From contig JAKIVX010000013.1 of the NCBI GenBank assembly GCA_022750335.1, positions 1 through 46,925 of the forward strand: a DNA stretch of 46,925 nucleotides, written 5' to 3'. The DNA comes from Thermoplasmata archaeon (lineage in GTDB: Archaea; Thermoplasmatota; Thermoplasmata; Lutacidiplasmatales; UBA184). A model generated the notes under the pieces. The model had not been told where the DNA came from, did not search any database, and saw only the letters and a list, made by a program, of their open reading frames with translations. Below are positions 4,174-43,071 of the stretch, in pieces; the first letter of the stretch is position 1; each line of letters opens with the position of its first letter. The translations under genes and the position numbers were made by a program.

Positions 4174-5472
4174 GTGGTCGGCTCCCAGTCGGGGAAGGGC
4201 ATCTACCACGTTGAGGGGGTTGCAATCCCAGGCGCTTTCGAATCGTGCTCGTGCCCCGACTTTGTTGAACGGATTGCGCCTTGCAAGCACATCTGGGCGG
4301 TCCGACACTGGATTCGTGATCCCGACACATTCGTCCGACCCGAGGGATTCTCTGCGAAGACTCCGCCGCCCGCTCGGGTCCCGATCAACTGGCATAACTA
4401 CGACCTGGCGCAGAACGAAGAGTATCGCCTCTTCAACACCCTGCTGAGAGACCTTGCTTGGGGATTCGCTGAGCCGGCGAAAGACCCCCATCTGGCCGGT
4501 CGTAAACCCATACCACTTCGGGAGCAGGCGTTTTGCGCGGTTCAGAAGACCTACCTTGGGTTCTCCTGCCGCCGCTCGCACGGCTTCCGAGCGGAGGCCG
4601 CAAGAAACGGCCTGCTTACGAAGCCTCCATTTTGGGCCGTCACTTCCCGTTTCCTTTGCCGGGATGACGTAACGTCTGGTCTCCACGACATGCTAGCCCG
4701 ATCGGCAATCCCGTTGATCGGCCTGGAGGACAAGTGCGCGATAGACTCAACCGGCCTCCGAACGACTCGATTCAACTACTACCGGAAGGAGAAGTACGAA
4801 CCGGAGCGGGAGAACGACTGGCGCAAGCTCCACGCCCTGGTCGGCGTGAAGACACACGTCATGCCCGTGCTCGAATTCACGGATGGGTCGGTCCACGACT
4901 CGAAGATGTTCGAGAGTCTCTTACGCCGAGCTCTCGAGAACGGATTTCAATTCAAGCAAGTCGTCGCGGACAAGGGTTACCAGGGCCGAGCCAATTTCAA
5001 CACTGCGGCGGAGTTGGAGGTCCAGCCCTTCATCCCGTTCAAGAAGAACCAGACGGGCGAAACCAAGGGCAGCCCGATGTATCACAAAATGTTCCTCTTC
5101 TTCCAGCTTCACCGAGAGCAATTTGACCAGATCTACGGACAACGAGCTCAGGTCGAATCCTCGTTTTCGGCATACAAACAAAAGTTCGGGGAGGTCATCG
5201 CGTCCCGGAATTTCGATGCCCAACAGAATGAGGTCCTCTGCACGGCGATCGCCTACAACATCACGATCCTGGTACGGCAGATGTTCGAAGCTGGGATTCT
5301 ACCCGACTTTCTCCAGCCTGCCTCGCCTGAGAAGATGACCCCGGCGGGCCAGCGGACAGACTCGGTGCCCTGGCTGTCTCTAAATCAACTGGAGGTGACT
5401 CAGCCTGTAACTCAATCGCCCTCCCCGGGGTGTTTAAGGCACAACGTCCTCTCTACGCAAACGTTTATGTAA
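4174..5472 (+). CDS. IS4-type DDE transposase with N-terminal SWIM zinc finger
   Basis: A 432-residue product if translation restarts at the GTG at 4174. Residues about 25-45 (CSCPDFVERIAPCKH) form a SWIM-type CxC...CxH zinc finger, a DNA-binding addition seen in archaeal transposases. The catalytic core has the first Asp in CAIDSTGLRTTRF (about 190), the second in VVADKGYQGRAN (about 265) and the Glu in YGQRAQVESSFSAYKQKFG (about 330), the pattern of DDE_Tnp_1 enzymes. The same frame extends upstream to 4072 but carries a TAG at 4150-4152. The core looks intact, so inactivation, if real, comes from loss of the N-terminus. Confidence 0.8.
   Translation: MVGSQSGKGIYHVEGVAIPGAFESCSCPDFVERIAPCKHIWAVRHWIRDPDTFVRPEGFSAKTPPPARVPINWHNYDLAQNEEYRLFNTLLRDLAWGFAEPAKDPHLAGRKPIPLREQAFCAVQKTYLGFSCRRSHGFRAEAARNGLLTKPPFWAVTSRFLCRDDVTSGLHDMLARSAIPLIGLEDKCAIDSTGLRTTRFNYYRKEKYEPERENDWRKLHALVGVKTHVMPVLEFTDGSVHDSKMFESLLRRALENGFQFKQVVADKGYQGRANFNTAAELEVQPFIPFKKNQTGETKGSPMYHKMFLFFQLHREQFDQIYGQRAQVESSFSAYKQKFGEVIASRNFDAQQNEVLCTAIAYNITILVRQMFEAGILPDFLQPASPEKMTPAGQRTDSVPWLSLNQLEVTQPVTQSPSPGCLRHNVLSTQTFM
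5462..5472 (+). promoter_or_regulatory. Possible ftsZ TATA box
   Basis: CGTTTATGTAA, about 55-70 nt before the two candidate ftsZ starts. It overlaps the end of the transposase gene, so ftsZ transcription may start within the insertion sequence border. Confidence 0.35.
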
Positions 5473-14685: not shown

Positions 14686-16215
14686 TCAGAACGGGACCCG
14701 GTCCCGGACCTCGCGGACGAGGACCCCGGAGGCGAGATCCTCCGTGATCCGCGCGAGGTCGGGCGCCGGGCTCCGGTCGTGGGTCCATGACGCGACGCGC
14801 GACCGTACGGCCGTCAGCGCCGCTTCGCTCCCGCGGCCGCCGGTCCGAGGATGCCGGAGTTCGAGGGCTTGGCAGGAGACGATCCACTCGACGGCGAGCA
14901 CCCGCCGGGTGTTCTCGAGGATGCGGCGCAGCTTCACTCCGGCCCACGGTCCCATGCTGACGTAGTCCTCCTGGTCGGCCGAGGTCGGCAGGCTGGACGC
15001 GCTCGCCGGATGGACGAGCGTCACATTCTCGTTCACGAGCGCCGCCGCGAGATACTGGGGCACCATGAAACCGGAGCTCACGCCGGGGTCGGGAGCGAGG
15101 AACGCCGGAAGTCCGTGGTTCAGCGCGGGATGAAGGAGGCGCGAGACCCGCCGCTCACTGAACGCGGCCAGGTACTGCGTGGTCAGCGCCAGGGTGTCGA
15201 GGGCGAGCGCGAGCGGTTGACCGTGGAAGTTGCCTCCACTCACGAACTCGTCTCCGTCGAAGACCACGGGGTTGTCCGTGACGGCGTTCAACTCGCGGCC
15301 CACGATCTTCTCGGCAAATTGCAGACCGAGCTCGACCGAGCCCAAGACCTGCGGAAGGCAGCGGAGCGTGTAGGCATCCTGGCCCGTCCAGGTCGTGTGG
15401 GGGGCCGAGAGCACGCTCCCCGCGAGCAGGGCCCGCAGCGAGGCCGCCACCGCCCGGTGCTCCGGGAAGTTCCGGATCTCGCCGAGCCGATCATCGAGCG
15501 ATTCGGGGTTCCCTTCCAGCGCATCGAATGAAACGGCCGCGGCGATGAGCGCGGCGTCGAGGAGCGACCGGAGGTCCGCCACCGCGAGGGCGAGGTAAGA
15601 GGCCATGAGCGCGGTCCCGTTGAGGAGCGCGACCCCTTCCTTCTCGACTAGTTCGAGGGGAGCGATCCCCTCGCGATCGAGCAGGCGTCGGGCCGGTTCC
15701 GGGGCTCCGCCGGCCGGGCCGAGGAACGCCCCTTCCCCCACCAGGGTCATCGCCAAGTGCGCGAGGGGGGCGAGGTCGCCGGAGGCCCCGACGGACCCCT
15801 GCTCCGGGATCCATGGGACGAGCCGTCGGTTGAGGAGTTCGAGGAGATGGTCGACGACCTCCGGTCGGACCCCGGAATGGCCGCGGGCCAGCGAGTTCGC
15901 CCGCAAGAGCATCAGACCCCGAACGACGTCGGTCGGGAGCGCCGGTCCCGTTCCGCTCGAGTGGCTGCGGACGAGGGAGATCTGAAGTTCTCGGGACTGC
16001 GCTGCCGTGATCAGCTTGTGGGACAGCCCACCAAATCCTGTCGTCACGCCGTAGACGGCGCGATTGGCCGCGACCGCGCGCTCGACCGCTCCGCGGCTCG
16101 CCCCGATCCGGGTCCGAGCCTCGGCGGGAAGCGCGACCACTCCGTGGCCCCGGGCCACGGCGAGGAACTGGCCGAGCGTGAGGGAACGTCCATCGACGGG
16201 AATCGGCTCGGGCAT
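14686..16215 (-). CDS. hutH: Histidine ammonia-lyase
   Basis: A 509-residue enzyme that deaminates L-histidine to trans-urocanate, the first step of histidine degradation. The autocatalytic MIO cofactor triad Ala-Ser-Gly is present in GSVGASGDLAPLAHLA (about residue 145), the catalytic Tyr in VYGVTTGFGGL (about 55), and the family signatures NGTALMASYLAL, GGNFHGQPLALALD and PTSADQEDYVSMG. Length is normal. Urocanase, imidazolonepropionase and formimidoylglutamase are not adjacent. A tyrosine-type lyase is possible, but the NGTALM and GGNFHGQ motifs favour histidine. Confidence 0.9.
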   Translation of the reverse strand: MPEPIPVDGRSLTLGQFLAVARGHGVVALPAEARTRIGASRGAVERAVAANRAVYGVTTGFGGLSHKLITAAQSRELQISLVRSHSSGTGPALPTDVVRGLMLLRANSLARGHSGVRPEVVDHLLELLNRRLVPWIPEQGSVGASGDLAPLAHLAMTLVGEGAFLGPAGGAPEPARRLLDREGIAPLELVEKEGVALLNGTALMASYLALAVADLRSLLDAALIAAAVSFDALEGNPESLDDRLGEIRNFPEHRAVAASLRALLAGSVLSAPHTTWTGQDAYTLRCLPQVLGSVELGLQFAEKIVGRELNAVTDNPVVFDGDEFVSGGNFHGQPLALALDTLALTTQYLAAFSERRVSRLLHPALNHGLPAFLAPDPGVSSGFMVPQYLAAALVNENVTLVHPASASSLPTSADQEDYVSMGPWAGVKLRRILENTRRVLAVEWIVSCQALELRHPRTGGRGSEAALTAVRSRVASWTHDRSPAPDLARITEDLASGVLVREVRDRVPF

Positions 16216-16267: not shown

Positions 16268-16798
16268 TTATGCGGCCGGGACGACGAGCTCACCACCGGG
16301 TTTCTGCATCGAGGGAACACGGCGGGTCTTGGCGCCCTTGGCCTGCCAGAATATTTCCGAGAACTCCTGGACCAGCTTGAGGAGTTCCTGCGCGTCGGCG
16401 ACGTTGGTCCCCTGGCGCGCCTTCGATGCCTGCTTGAGGGTCCGCCAGGTGAGGTCGTGGATCTGCGGGAATTGCTTGGCGTGGTCGGGGGTGAAGAAGT
16501 CGCCCCAGATGACCCGGACGTCGTTCTTGAGGCGCTCGGAGTGCTGCTCCTTCACGGTCGTATAGCGCGAAATCTTGGAGATGTAGGCGGCTCGGTCCTC
16601 CGGCTTCGCGTCCATCGCTGGAGCCGCGAGTTCGGCGATCAACTGGTCCATCCGGAGGATCGTCAGGGCGGACAGTTGGGCGTCGGTCGGGTCGTAAATA
16701 CCACACGGGATGTCGCAGTGGGCGAAGACGGCCCGGGGGGGAAACACGGCGTCCACAAGGCGCTCCACGATTCGGCCAGATGAGAGGGCGACGAACAT
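16268..16798 (-). CDS. sodN: Nickel superoxide dismutase precursor
   Basis: A 176-residue protein that disproportionates superoxide at a nickel centre. The diagnostic Ni-hook HCDIPCGIYDP follows a 26-residue leader (MFVALSSGRIVERLVDAVFP then PRAVFA). In known NiSODs the leader is removed so that His1 becomes the N-terminus, and His1, Cys2, Cys6 and Tyr9, needed for nickel binding and catalysis, are all present. The helical body (RYTTVKEQHSERLKNDVRVI, WGDFFTPDHAKQFPQIHDL, ELLKLVQEFSEIFWQAKG) matches the family. The ATG at 16798 lies about 27 nt after a TATA-like box. It is divergent from its putative processing protease, 30 bp away. NiSOD is known mainly from bacteria and some algae. Confidence 0.93.
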   Translation of the reverse strand: MFVALSSGRIVERLVDAVFPPRAVFAHCDIPCGIYDPTDAQLSALTILRMDQLIAELAAPAMDAKPEDRAAYISKISRYTTVKEQHSERLKNDVRVIWGDFFTPDHAKQFPQIHDLTWRTLKQASKARQGTNVADAQELLKLVQEFSEIFWQAKGAKTRRVPSMQKPGGELVVPAA

Positions 16799-16820
16799 GG
16801 CGCCGCGAGCCCTGCGAGTC

Positions 16821-16828
16821 GGATAAGG
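16821..16828 (-). promoter_or_regulatory. TATA box of sodN in the 30-bp sodN/sodX spacer
   Basis: CCTTATCC on the minus strand, centred about 27 nt before the sodN ATG. It touches the sodX start codon on the other strand, so a factor bound here would affect both genes. Confidence 0.5.
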
Positions 16829-17317
16829 ATGCCGGAAGCACCGAAGTCGGAGGCGATTCCCGCCTCGAATGCCGGGAGCCCGCGCCCGTGGCGCTGGGGT
16901 GGCCGCCGAGTCGAGGTCCACGACGAGAGCATGCGGCCGACGTTGCTGCCGGGCGATCGATTGCGGGTGGACGTGCGCGCGTACCGCCAGCAGCCGCCCC
17001 ACGCCGGGGACATCGTGGTGCTCCGCGATCCGGAGGAACCCCGCCGTTGGATCGTGAAACGGGTCGCAGCCGTCGGACCGGGAACGTGGTGGCGCACAAC
17101 CCGCGGCCTCGTCGCGGTCCGGCCGGACTCACCCACGACCGAGCGCCCCGCCGACGCAGTGGAACTGATCCCGCTTCGCCCGTCGGACGTCTGGGTCCTG
17201 GGCGACGACCCCGATCGGTCGCGGGACAGCCGCCGTTTCGGTCCCGTGCCGCCGTTGGCCGTGATCGGACGCGCCGTCCGCATTTACGCCCCGACGGCCC
17301 GCCGTCGGGACCTCTAG
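16829..17317 (+). CDS. sodX: Nickel-type SOD maturation protease (SodX-like)
   Basis: A 162-residue S24/S26-type serine protease resembling a signal peptidase I without a membrane anchor. The catalytic Ser is in VHDESMRPTLLPGDRLRVD (about residue 33) and the catalytic Lys in RRWIVKRVAAVGP (about 75). SDVWVLGDDPDRSRDSRRFG matches the S26 box with the conserved GD and SRDSR. In bacteria such a protease next to sodN cleaves the NiSOD leader to expose the Ni-hook. The divergent arrangement with sodN fits that role strongly. The ATG at 16829 is used, but a later start remains possible. No TATA box is evident on this side of the short spacer. Confidence 0.82.
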   Translation: MPEAPKSEAIPASNAGSPRPWRWGGRRVEVHDESMRPTLLPGDRLRVDVRAYRQQPPHAGDIVVLRDPEEPRRWIVKRVAAVGPGTWWRTTRGLVAVRPDSPTTERPADAVELIPLRPSDVWVLGDDPDRSRDSRRFGPVPPLAVIGRAVRIYAPTARRRDL

Positions 17318-17350: not shown

Positions 17351-17374
17351 GCGATGTGTCAATCCGCCACATCG

Positions 17375-18466
17375 ATGGTGGCGAAGGCGGTTCTCGTGGT
17401 GATCCTCGTCGTGGTGGCGGCGGCAGCCGGTGGCCTTGGGTTCGTGGCGGGATATGAGTACAAGACCTCGCCGGCCGCGAGCCCGGCGGCGACCATCAAT
17501 TCGACCCTGTCGGTCCTGGGCGCGGGCACGCTCGACACGCTGTTCCCGCAACTGGCGAGCGAACTCGTCAATGAGTCGGGCGGGACGATCTCGGCGCCGG
17601 TCGCGGCGCAGACCTACGAGGGGTCGATCGATATCACGACCGCCATCACCCAGACCCATGCCCTCACCGACGTGGCGGCGGTGGCGGATTACCGCCTGAT
17701 CCCCCAGATGCTCGAACCGACCTACGCGAACTACGAGATCGTCTTCGGGACCACTCCGGAAGTGCTCGCCTACAACGCCAGTCTCCCCGCGTTCGCGGGC
17801 ATCAACTCCACCAACTGGGCCCAGAAGCTCATCGCTGACGTCACGACGCCCGGCAACAGGCCGATGGGCATCTGGAACGCCTCGACCGACCCGAACGGCT
17901 ACAACGAGATCTTTGCCATGGAGCTCCAGGGGATGCTCTACAACGGCAGCACGAGCGCCATCTACAGCCACTTCTACACGACGGGCGCCGACGGGGTCGC
18001 GGTCGGCACCTCGAACACGATCCTCGAGCACGAGTCGCAGGCGGCGAACCTCGTCAAGACCGGGGTGATCTCCGCGGTGATCACGTACCGCTCGTTTGCG
18101 GTCGTGAACGACATGTCGTACGTCTCGTTCAACCCGATCGTGGGCCTCGTGGCCAACAATTCCACCGCGCTCGCGGACTACGCGAAGCTCTCGACCGACA
18201 TCCTGACCTCCACGGGCGGGACGCAGTCAGTGTCGGCGGCCCCCGTACTCTTCTCGATCACGGTCCCGTTGAACGCCCCCAACCCCGCCCTCGGGGCGGC
18301 GTTCATCCACCTCCTCCTCTCCCCCCAAGGGAGTGCCATCCTCTCGGAAGGGGGGGCGTTCACCCCGATCTTCCCCGGTTGGAGTAATACACCGGGCGCG
18401 GTGCCGTCGGTGCTCGCACCGGACGTGACGAGCCTACCGACGTGGGCGGCAACGATCCTCGGCTGA
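17375..18466 (+). CDS. wtpA: Tungstate/molybdate ABC transporter, substrate-binding protein WtpA
   Basis: A 363-residue extracytoplasmic binding protein. The N-terminal segment AVLVVILVVVAAAAGGLGFV is an uncleaved anchor or signal helix; there is no lipobox Cys. The mature part has features of oxyanion-binding WtpA/ModA proteins: LSVLGAGTLDTLFPQL at the first binding loop, DVAAVADYRLIPQML, YEIVFGTTPEVLAYN, and a late LFSITVPLNAPNPALGAAFI before HLLLSPQGSAIL. It captures tungstate or molybdate for the permease encoded next. The ATG at 17375 lies 27 nt after a TATA-like box. It overlaps wtpB by 25 bp. Confidence 0.85.
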   Translation: MVAKAVLVVILVVVAAAAGGLGFVAGYEYKTSPAASPAATINSTLSVLGAGTLDTLFPQLASELVNESGGTISAPVAAQTYEGSIDITTAITQTHALTDVAAVADYRLIPQMLEPTYANYEIVFGTTPEVLAYNASLPAFAGINSTNWAQKLIADVTTPGNRPMGIWNASTDPNGYNEIFAMELQGMLYNGSTSAIYSHFYTTGADGVAVGTSNTILEHESQAANLVKTGVISAVITYRSFAVVNDMSYVSFNPIVGLVANNSTALADYAKLSTDILTSTGGTQSVSAAPVLFSITVPLNAPNPALGAAFIHLLLSPQGSAILSEGGAFTPIFPGWSNTPGAVPSVLAPDVTSLPTWAATILG

Positions 18467-41562: not shown

Positions 41563-43071
41563 ATGCGGCTCCTGCTCGTCGAGGAGGTCCTTGACCCGGA
41601 CCGCGAGGGCGACGTTCCGCTTTCCCAAGCCGATCGCAAAGCGCTGCTCGAGAGAATCCGACGGGGCGACAAGGCGATCGAGGAAGCGCGCGAGCTCAAG
41701 GCCAAGATCCGTCGGGTCCAGGAACAGCTTCGCCGCCACAAAGCGTGCCCCCCGATGCTTGCCGCCTCCGACCGTACTGCGGAGGTGGGAAGCATCCCCT
41801 CCAGTCGCGTCTTCTACCGTCGGCCGGTTCACTCTACTCCGAGACCCACGGGTGGCCAACTCGGCCACCCGGGGCGCTCGCGCGAGCACCCCATGGCGAA
41901 CTCGCCACCGCTGAAGCTGACCCTGGAGCGGTGCACCGACTGTGGTGCGCCCCTCGGTGCGCCGGTCGAGGTCCGTCGGCGGACCCTCACCGAACTCCCT
42001 CCTCCCCAGCCTCGGATCTTCGACATCGAGATCGCGCGCTACAACTGCCCCGACTGCCACCGACGAGTGGAGGCGCAGAGCCCGTATCCGAAGAACCAAC
42101 AGTATGGGTTCACCCTTATCGCACGGGTCGTTCAACTCCGATTGTTGGGGCTGAGCACCTCGAAGATCGTGGACTACTTCGAGGGGGCCCACGGAGTGCG
42201 GCTCACCACGGCGGCCGTGCTGAAGATGGAACAGCTCGCTGCGCACTCGGTCGATCCGCTCTACGGGAAGCTCAAAGCCGCTCTCCCCCAACAGCCCGTC
42301 ATCCACGCCGATGAGACCAAGTTCCGAATCGGTGGGGAGAACGGATGGTTGTGGGCGTTCTCCTCGCCCCAGACGGTCGTCTACGGGATCGCTCCGAGTC
42401 GGGGACAGGATGTGGTGGAGGAGTTCCTCCACGGAGCTCACGGGACGATCGTCCACGATGGATGGGTCCCCTACGACATCATCCAGACCGCGAAACATCA
42501 ACTCGATCTACTGCACGTGAACCGGTGGCTGGAGCGCGAGGAGATCCTCCATCGACTCGAACCACGGCCGCTGCTCCGGGACGTCCCGCCAAAGCTGGTC
42601 AGCGTGGGCCGCCCTCCCGAGGAGTTCCTGGAGTTCGCGGGAGACACGCGATGGCTGTTGCGGCACGCCATCGAGTGGTCGGAGCGGCATACTCACGCCT
42701 CGGGAAGAGAGCGCCGCGAGTTCTACCGCTCAGTGCGGTGGTTGATGACGAACCACCTGCGGAGAGGGTGGTCGGAGCGGGCGGCGGCCCGCATCGTGGA
42801 ACAGCTGGACAAGCGTCGCGGGACGCTCTTCACCTTCCTCATCGAGCCCGTAGTTGCCTGGCACAACAACGACGCAGAGTCCCAGATCCGGCAGGGGGTG
42901 CTGTATCGAAAGATCAGCGGCGGGCGGAGATCATGGAGCGGGGCGTGGGCCTTGGAGCGGCTGCTCACGGTCTATCGCACGTGCCGGAAGCGGGCGCTTC
43001 AGTTTGTGAAAGTCCTCACCGACGCGCTGTCGGGGTTGGGATTCCCTGAGGTTGGCGCTCCGTCAGGGTAG
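41563..43071 (+). CDS. IS66-family transposase
   Basis: A 502-residue DDE transposase. An N-terminal coiled coil (IRRGDKAIEEARELKAKIRR) leads to the GGQLGHPG proline/glycine link, then a zinc-binding region CTDCGAPLGAP...YNCPDCHRRV. The catalytic residues are Asp in PVIHADETKFRIGGENGWLW (about 248), Asp in GTIVHDGWVPYD (about 300) and Glu in WHNNDAESQIRQGVLYRKIS (about 440), the IS66 NNxAExxIR signature. The frame is full length and open, so it could be active. The accessory TnpA/TnpB genes of bacterial IS66 elements are absent. Confidence 0.9.
   Translation: MRLLLVEEVLDPDREGDVPLSQADRKALLERIRRGDKAIEEARELKAKIRRVQEQLRRHKACPPMLAASDRTAEVGSIPSSRVFYRRPVHSTPRPTGGQLGHPGRSREHPMANSPPLKLTLERCTDCGAPLGAPVEVRRRTLTELPPPQPRIFDIEIARYNCPDCHRRVEAQSPYPKNQQYGFTLIARVVQLRLLGLSTSKIVDYFEGAHGVRLTTAAVLKMEQLAAHSVDPLYGKLKAALPQQPVIHADETKFRIGGENGWLWAFSSPQTVVYGIAPSRGQDVVEEFLHGAHGTIVHDGWVPYDIIQTAKHQLDLLHVNRWLEREEILHRLEPRPLLRDVPPKLVSVGRPPEEFLEFAGDTRWLLRHAIEWSERHTHASGRERREFYRSVRWLMTNHLRRGWSERAAARIVEQLDKRRGTLFTFLIEPVVAWHNNDAESQIRQGVLYRKISGGRRSWSGAWALERLLTVYRTCRKRALQFVKVLTDALSGLGFPEVGAPSG

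Follow-up and report, generated by a model that had tools for sequence, protein, structure and literature searches.

How did a nickel superoxide dismutase (NiSOD), with a candidate for the protease that matures it, come to lie in an archaeal genome, and are the two genes the sodN/sodX pair known from bacteria? The question is raised by a contig of 46,925 nucleotides (JAKIVX010000013.1, hereafter the window) from the 1.6 Mb, 72% complete genome G000, in which the first-pass annotation had read a complete NiSOD system among plainly archaeal genes and had suspected a transfer from bacteria. The archaeal setting holds, the genus being a member of the order Lutacidiplasmatales (Thermoplasmatota).

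A survey of 2009 found NiSOD in no archaea (PMC2667541). In 2022 a nickel SOD, listed as SOD (Ni) K00518, was reported among the stress genes of Lutacidiplasmatales in the paper where the order is named (PMC9287336); its passages on the enzyme report it alone, with no sodX found in the main text and with neither a NiSOD tree nor an analysis of gene signals. NiSOD was then published in 2023 for the marine group II (MGII) archaea, for which a bacterial, cyanobacterial source was proposed (PMC10783094). Since PMC9287336 reports the enzyme, NiSOD was already known in this archaeal order, and the novelty first implied for an archaeal NiSOD does not stand. Furthermore, our sequence search found SodN in Micrarchaeota, Aenigmatarchaeota, Parvarchaeota and Nanoarchaeota (DPANN), Thaumarchaeota and Heimdallarchaeota. 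No report of sodX in archaea was found in the open-access literature searched. Within that literature, what looks new is the linked SodX throughout the genus, a Chloroflexota-like origin distinct from that of the MGII enzyme, and the replacement of bacterial by archaeal gene signals.

Results

The sodN gene and its product

The features of the locus are collected in Table 1. In profile searches SodN scored 141.5 bits against Pfam Sod_Ni (PF09055, cut-off 25) and 143.7 bits against TIGR02753 (sodN, cut-off 90), and scores so far over both cut-offs place its family identity beyond chance. The nickel hook HCDIPCGIYDP begins at residue 27 of the precursor (H27), directly after the leader; the intact hook, with all its ligands, that had been read from the sequence is confirmed. 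Residues H1, C2, D3, P5, C6 and Y9 of the hook are invariant in 66 Lutacidiplasmatales sequences and in all the other sequences compared. The leader has 26 residues in 53 of the 55 loci of the genus and mostly ends in xVYA before the histidine.

Table 1. Features of the sodN/sodX locus, in coordinates of the window
Feature	Position	Strand	Remarks
hutH, histidine ammonia-lyase	14686..16215	-	52 bp downstream of sodN; TIGR01225, 590.9 bits
sodN, nickel superoxide dismutase precursor	16268..16798	-	176 aa; stop codon 16268-16270 within the coordinates
Nickel hook HCDIPCGIYDP	16688..16720	-	Ligands His1, Cys2, Cys6; also Asp3, Pro5, Tyr9
N-terminal leader MFVALSSGRIVERLVDAVFPPRAVFA	16721..16798	-	26 residues; removal expected before His27
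Spacer between divergent start codons, with the sodN TATA-like element (CTTAT)	16799..16828		30 bp
sodX start codon ATG	16829..16831	+	Abuts the sodN TATA-like box
sodX candidate (P0002), Ser/Lys S26-type maturation protease	16829..17317	+	162 aa
WtpA-like tungstate/molybdate-binding protein	17354..18466	+	Downstream of sodX; NF003196, 108.5 bits, under cut-off

The AlphaFold model of SodN is the four-helix bundle of NiSOD, with pLDDT above 90 in the core and low values in the leader, a poor order that is expected of a removable peptide. When the model was compared with the PDB the top 16 matches were all NiSOD (TM 0.86-0.91 on the target), the Streptomyces structures being matched at E 3e-7. 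The likeness to the Streptomyces system (SodN, PDB 1t6u and 1q0d, with SodX) extends over the fold, the His1/Cys2/Cys6 hook, the cleavable leader and the S26-type partner, the window SodN being about 38% identical to an actinobacterial SodN. In contrast, the window leader is longer than that of Streptomyces SodN, which has about 14 residues, and the window protein carries an extra C-terminal tail and a different residue pair at positions 17 and 47. The tail, P-S-x-Q-x-x-G-G-E-[LIV]-V (16338-16268), is modelled as two strands; it is common to several Chloroflexota and absent from Streptomyces NiSOD.

In Streptomyces NiSOD the pair Glu17/Arg47 holds the axial His1 (PMC5722923). The corresponding residues of the window precursor are S43 and H86; Lutacidiplasmatales and Chloroflexota have Ala, Ser or Gly with His, other archaea mostly Ala or Ser with His, and Poseidoniales Ala with Glu. 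Because Ser/His stands here in place of the actinobacterial second-shell pair, the level of SodN activity cannot be assumed.

A membrane-free protease encoded beside sodN

The product of the divergent gene, P0002, matches Peptidase_S26 (PF10502) at 73.9 bits. It scores 59.7 bits against the NiSOD maturation protease model TIGR02754, narrowly under the cut-off of 63.25, and 66.3 bits against the general bacterial signal peptidase I model, over the cut-off of 47; in alignment A3 all 43 of 43 members match TIGR02754 at E <= 0.001. The catalytic Ser34 and Lys77 are kept in 77 of 77 sequences compared. No transmembrane segment was detected in the candidate, the best Kyte-Doolittle mean over 19 residues being 0.85, and its AlphaFold model shows the signal peptidase I fold, in agreement with a structure search. 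Thus, the earlier description of a membrane-free S26-type protease with Ser and Lys, on the other strand and 30 bp away (16799-16828), proved correct. An archaeal signal peptidase of the Sec11 type (TIGR02228) was considered and rejected, as P0002 reaches 15.8 bits against a cut-off of 51.85 and has the catalytic Lys.

The score is thus one ground for the name SodX, and the conserved pairing with sodN is the other: the linkage is kept within the genus and the same gene order occurs in Chloroflexota, which supports a pairing as in bacteria. The protease is best read as SodX.

Conservation of the locus

Of 61 genomes of the genus, the window's own counted, 55 carry sodN, whereas none of 40 genomes sampled from other genera does. 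In the phylum sample the gene was found in 109 of 390 genomes, mostly of the genus's own family and of two further families in which hook and gene order differ; from the published distribution in MGII we take these two to be Poseidoniales. It is missing from nearly all the other families sampled in the class.

Within the genus sodX is divergent from sodN in 54 of the 55 loci, and in the remaining one (L027) the contig ends before the gene. The hutH gene lies downstream of sodN in every locus of the genus with a usable flank, and its place on the sodN strand throughout suggests an operon with sodN; we count it as a conserved neighbour of the NiSOD system. Beyond sodX, a WtpA-like gene was found by tblastn in most loci of the genus. 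The GC level is 68-70% across the sodN/sodX locus. Elsewhere in the window there are transposase genes of the DDE_Tnp_1 and IS66 types (4174-5472 and 41563-43071), and GC is lower than in the central part of the contig in two places, the left end (56-59%) and the surroundings of the IS66 gene (62-65%). No match to sodN was found in phage records, and among plasmids there were only two distant bacterial matches.

Origin of SodN

A search of archaeal genomes for NiSOD and a tree with bacterial SodN, as proposed in the first-pass annotation, returned many archaeal lineages and set Lutacidiplasmatales within a grade of Chloroflexota. In this tree of 104 rows, rooted by Actinobacteria only, Lutacidiplasmatales SodN forms one clade (100/99) inside the grade and groups with a Chloroflexota sequence (L048) and a thaumarchaeote sequence (L052) at 99/93. 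Poseidoniales SodN is a far branch, and G335, a further Thermoplasmata genome, has a SodN that clusters with those of Anaerolineae. Topologies with all archaea as one clade and with Thermoplasmatota as one clade were rejected by the AU test (p=0.003 and p=0.005, respectively). A common origin of the NiSOD of Lutacidiplasmatales and Poseidoniales was likewise rejected, G335 included. It follows that archaea gained NiSOD on several occasions, and the acquisition by Lutacidiplasmatales is independent of that in MGII/Poseidoniales.

The constraint uniting Lutacidiplasmatales with a DPANN-rich clade was not rejected (p=0.085), nor was that with thaumarchaeote L052 alone (p=0.667), an arrangement as acceptable as the one in the tree. 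As neither grouping is rejected, the donor can be described as Chloroflexota-like and no more closely. The tree does not favour a transfer from DPANN archaea that share acidic habitats, although the test does not reject it, and the branch order near the base is uncertain. SodN and SodX are both short proteins, which we count against the reading preferred below.

The SodX tree leans the same way, weakly, in placing the genus, with moderate support, next to the SodX of Chloroflexota. An exception within the family is genus g32, which has a different SodX; its maturation protease may possibly have been replaced. To g32 belong loci L154, L160, L047 and L155, and in the first three sodX lies upstream of sodN on the same strand.

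Gene order points in the same direction. Among Chloroflexota of the Dehalococcoidia/SAR202 type, six pairs (L050, L051, L060, L061, L068, L113) share the region of the SodN clade and the head-to-head order of sodN and sodX, and most also share the GGE[LIV]V-type tail. In L048, the closest chloroflexotal locus by SodN, no recognisable sodX was found within 4 kb. With SodN inside the Chloroflexota grade, the AU tests and this gene order, the suspected transfer from bacteria is supported.

The MGII/Poseidoniales system (PMC10783094) resembles that of the window in its Thermoplasmatota host, in the bacterial origin thought for it and in a sodX-like gene downstream. It differs in its hook (HCDGPCGVYDP), its far branch in the tree, its co-directional sodX and its proposed cyanobacterial source.

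Signals between sodN and sodX

A motif C-N-TTA[T/A] occupies positions -30 to -25 relative to the sodN ATG in all 55 loci of the genus, and C.TTAT occurs in the expected fixed window in 53 of 55, versus 0.09% of shuffled upstream sequences. With few exceptions the relatives begin sodX with ATG, GTG or TTG, and in about 52 of the 55 loci the complement of this start codon (CAT, CAA or CAC) is seen at -33 to -31 of sodN. Chloroflexota differ: a Shine-Dalgarno sequence precedes sodN in 15 of 15 loci, among them all of the six pairs, and these pairs have no TATA-like box at -30 and a longer distance between the conserved sites of sodN and sodX. In the genus a Shine-Dalgarno-like sequence precedes sodN in 7 of 55 loci, near the 5.7% expected by chance. 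With Shine-Dalgarno near chance and a TATA-like box at -30 to -25, the module looks refitted for leaderless archaeal expression, and the sodN transcript would start at the ATG. For sodX, no TATA-like box was found at the right distance in the spacer, and no promoter is visible between 16799 and 16831; a bidirectional TATA element serving sodX as well is possible.

Superoxide dismutases and nickel import

The window's genome lacks a Fe/Mn SOD, as do 45 of 49 genomes of the genus and 16 of 16 further genomes tested, so that NiSOD is as a rule the sole SOD found in the genus. A NicO-family nickel importer is encoded in the window's genome (G000:C8:6600-7457), in 28 of 39 genomes of the genus and in G335, an independent NiSOD carrier; the 24 genomes examined from other genera of the class all lacked it, and so did G182, a member of the family without NiSOD. 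The distribution of NicO within the class nearly matches that of NiSOD. The importer is not obligatory, since some NiSOD carriers lack it (e.g. G277, G346 and the families taken as Poseidoniales), and all these gene absences are soft because genome completeness varies.

Discussion

From the genes, their residues, fold, linkage, phylogeny and signals, as read from sequence, we consider it very probable that the locus is a complete two-gene NiSOD module, sodN with sodX, which an ancestor of Lutacidiplasmatales acquired, most likely from a Chloroflexota-like bacterium, and which has been inherited vertically since. In the proposed course SodN would be synthesised with its 26-residue leader, and the soluble SodX would use Ser34 and Lys77 to cut after ..VFA, leaving His27 as the free N-terminus. 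This terminus, together with Cys28 and Cys32, would bind nickel, and the loaded enzyme would dismutate superoxide in the cytoplasm. After the uptake bacterial signals would have been exchanged for archaeal ones, with loss of the Shine-Dalgarno sequence, gain of a TATA-like box at -30 to -25 of the sodN start and a leaderless mRNA to be expected.

The simplest objection, a binning chimera in which the pair belongs to no archaeon, could appeal to the bacterial (Chloroflexota) affinity of the closest relatives outside and to two related records, L035 and L047, titled 'bacterium'; it is scarcely credible against a hutH-sodN-sodX block that recurs in more than 50 separate genomes of the genus, in divergent sequence and with the spacer mostly fixed at 30 bp, against the even GC level, and against gene signals that are archaeal rather than bacterial. 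The conserved synteny excludes a chimera, a possibility left open when the pair was first described. The two records in question are public MAGs (clean3188 and DX1.bin10) that carry SodN of the Lutacidiplasmatales type, and are probably mislabelled archaea.

A more specific doubt concerns the protease, which may be a general bacterial-type signal peptidase lying beside sodN by chance while another protease matures SodN. P0002 does pass the signal peptidase I cut-off and fall short of that of the NiSOD protease model; however, it has no membrane anchor, it adjoins sodN in 54 of 55 loci of the genus and, although gene orders differ, in the majority of the relatives from bacteria and archaea, and it is the only profile match in the incomplete G000 assembly, so that chance neighbourhood seems quite improbable. 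We also consider it quite improbable that an early ancestor of archaea already had NiSOD and that Chloroflexota received the enzyme from archaea. Many archaeal lineages carry the enzyme, the tree has only its actinobacterial root, the 6 changes between domains counted on it give no direction, and the clade with DPANN is acceptable in the AU test; against this stand the rejection of a single archaeal and of a single Thermoplasmatota clade, the lack of sodN in nearly all the other families sampled in the class, and the position of Chloroflexota as the surrounding grade.

Thus, we return to a module acquired from a Chloroflexota-like bacterium. A fuller account, to which we give about even chances, is that it crossed from bacteria whole and now serves, with a nickel importer, as the main superoxide defence, with a leaderless sodN transcript driven by a TATA box that adjoins the start codon of sodX. 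On the same reading, as box and start codon adjoin, one 30-bp element would link the expression of the enzyme with that of its activator. What had been the bare annotation that archaea have NiSOD can now be tested as a module, for which a partner protease and a probable donor group can be named and the change of signals can be read. Furthermore, as the genus mostly shows no SOD other than NiSOD, nickel supply may decide the oxygen tolerance of these acid-soil archaea.
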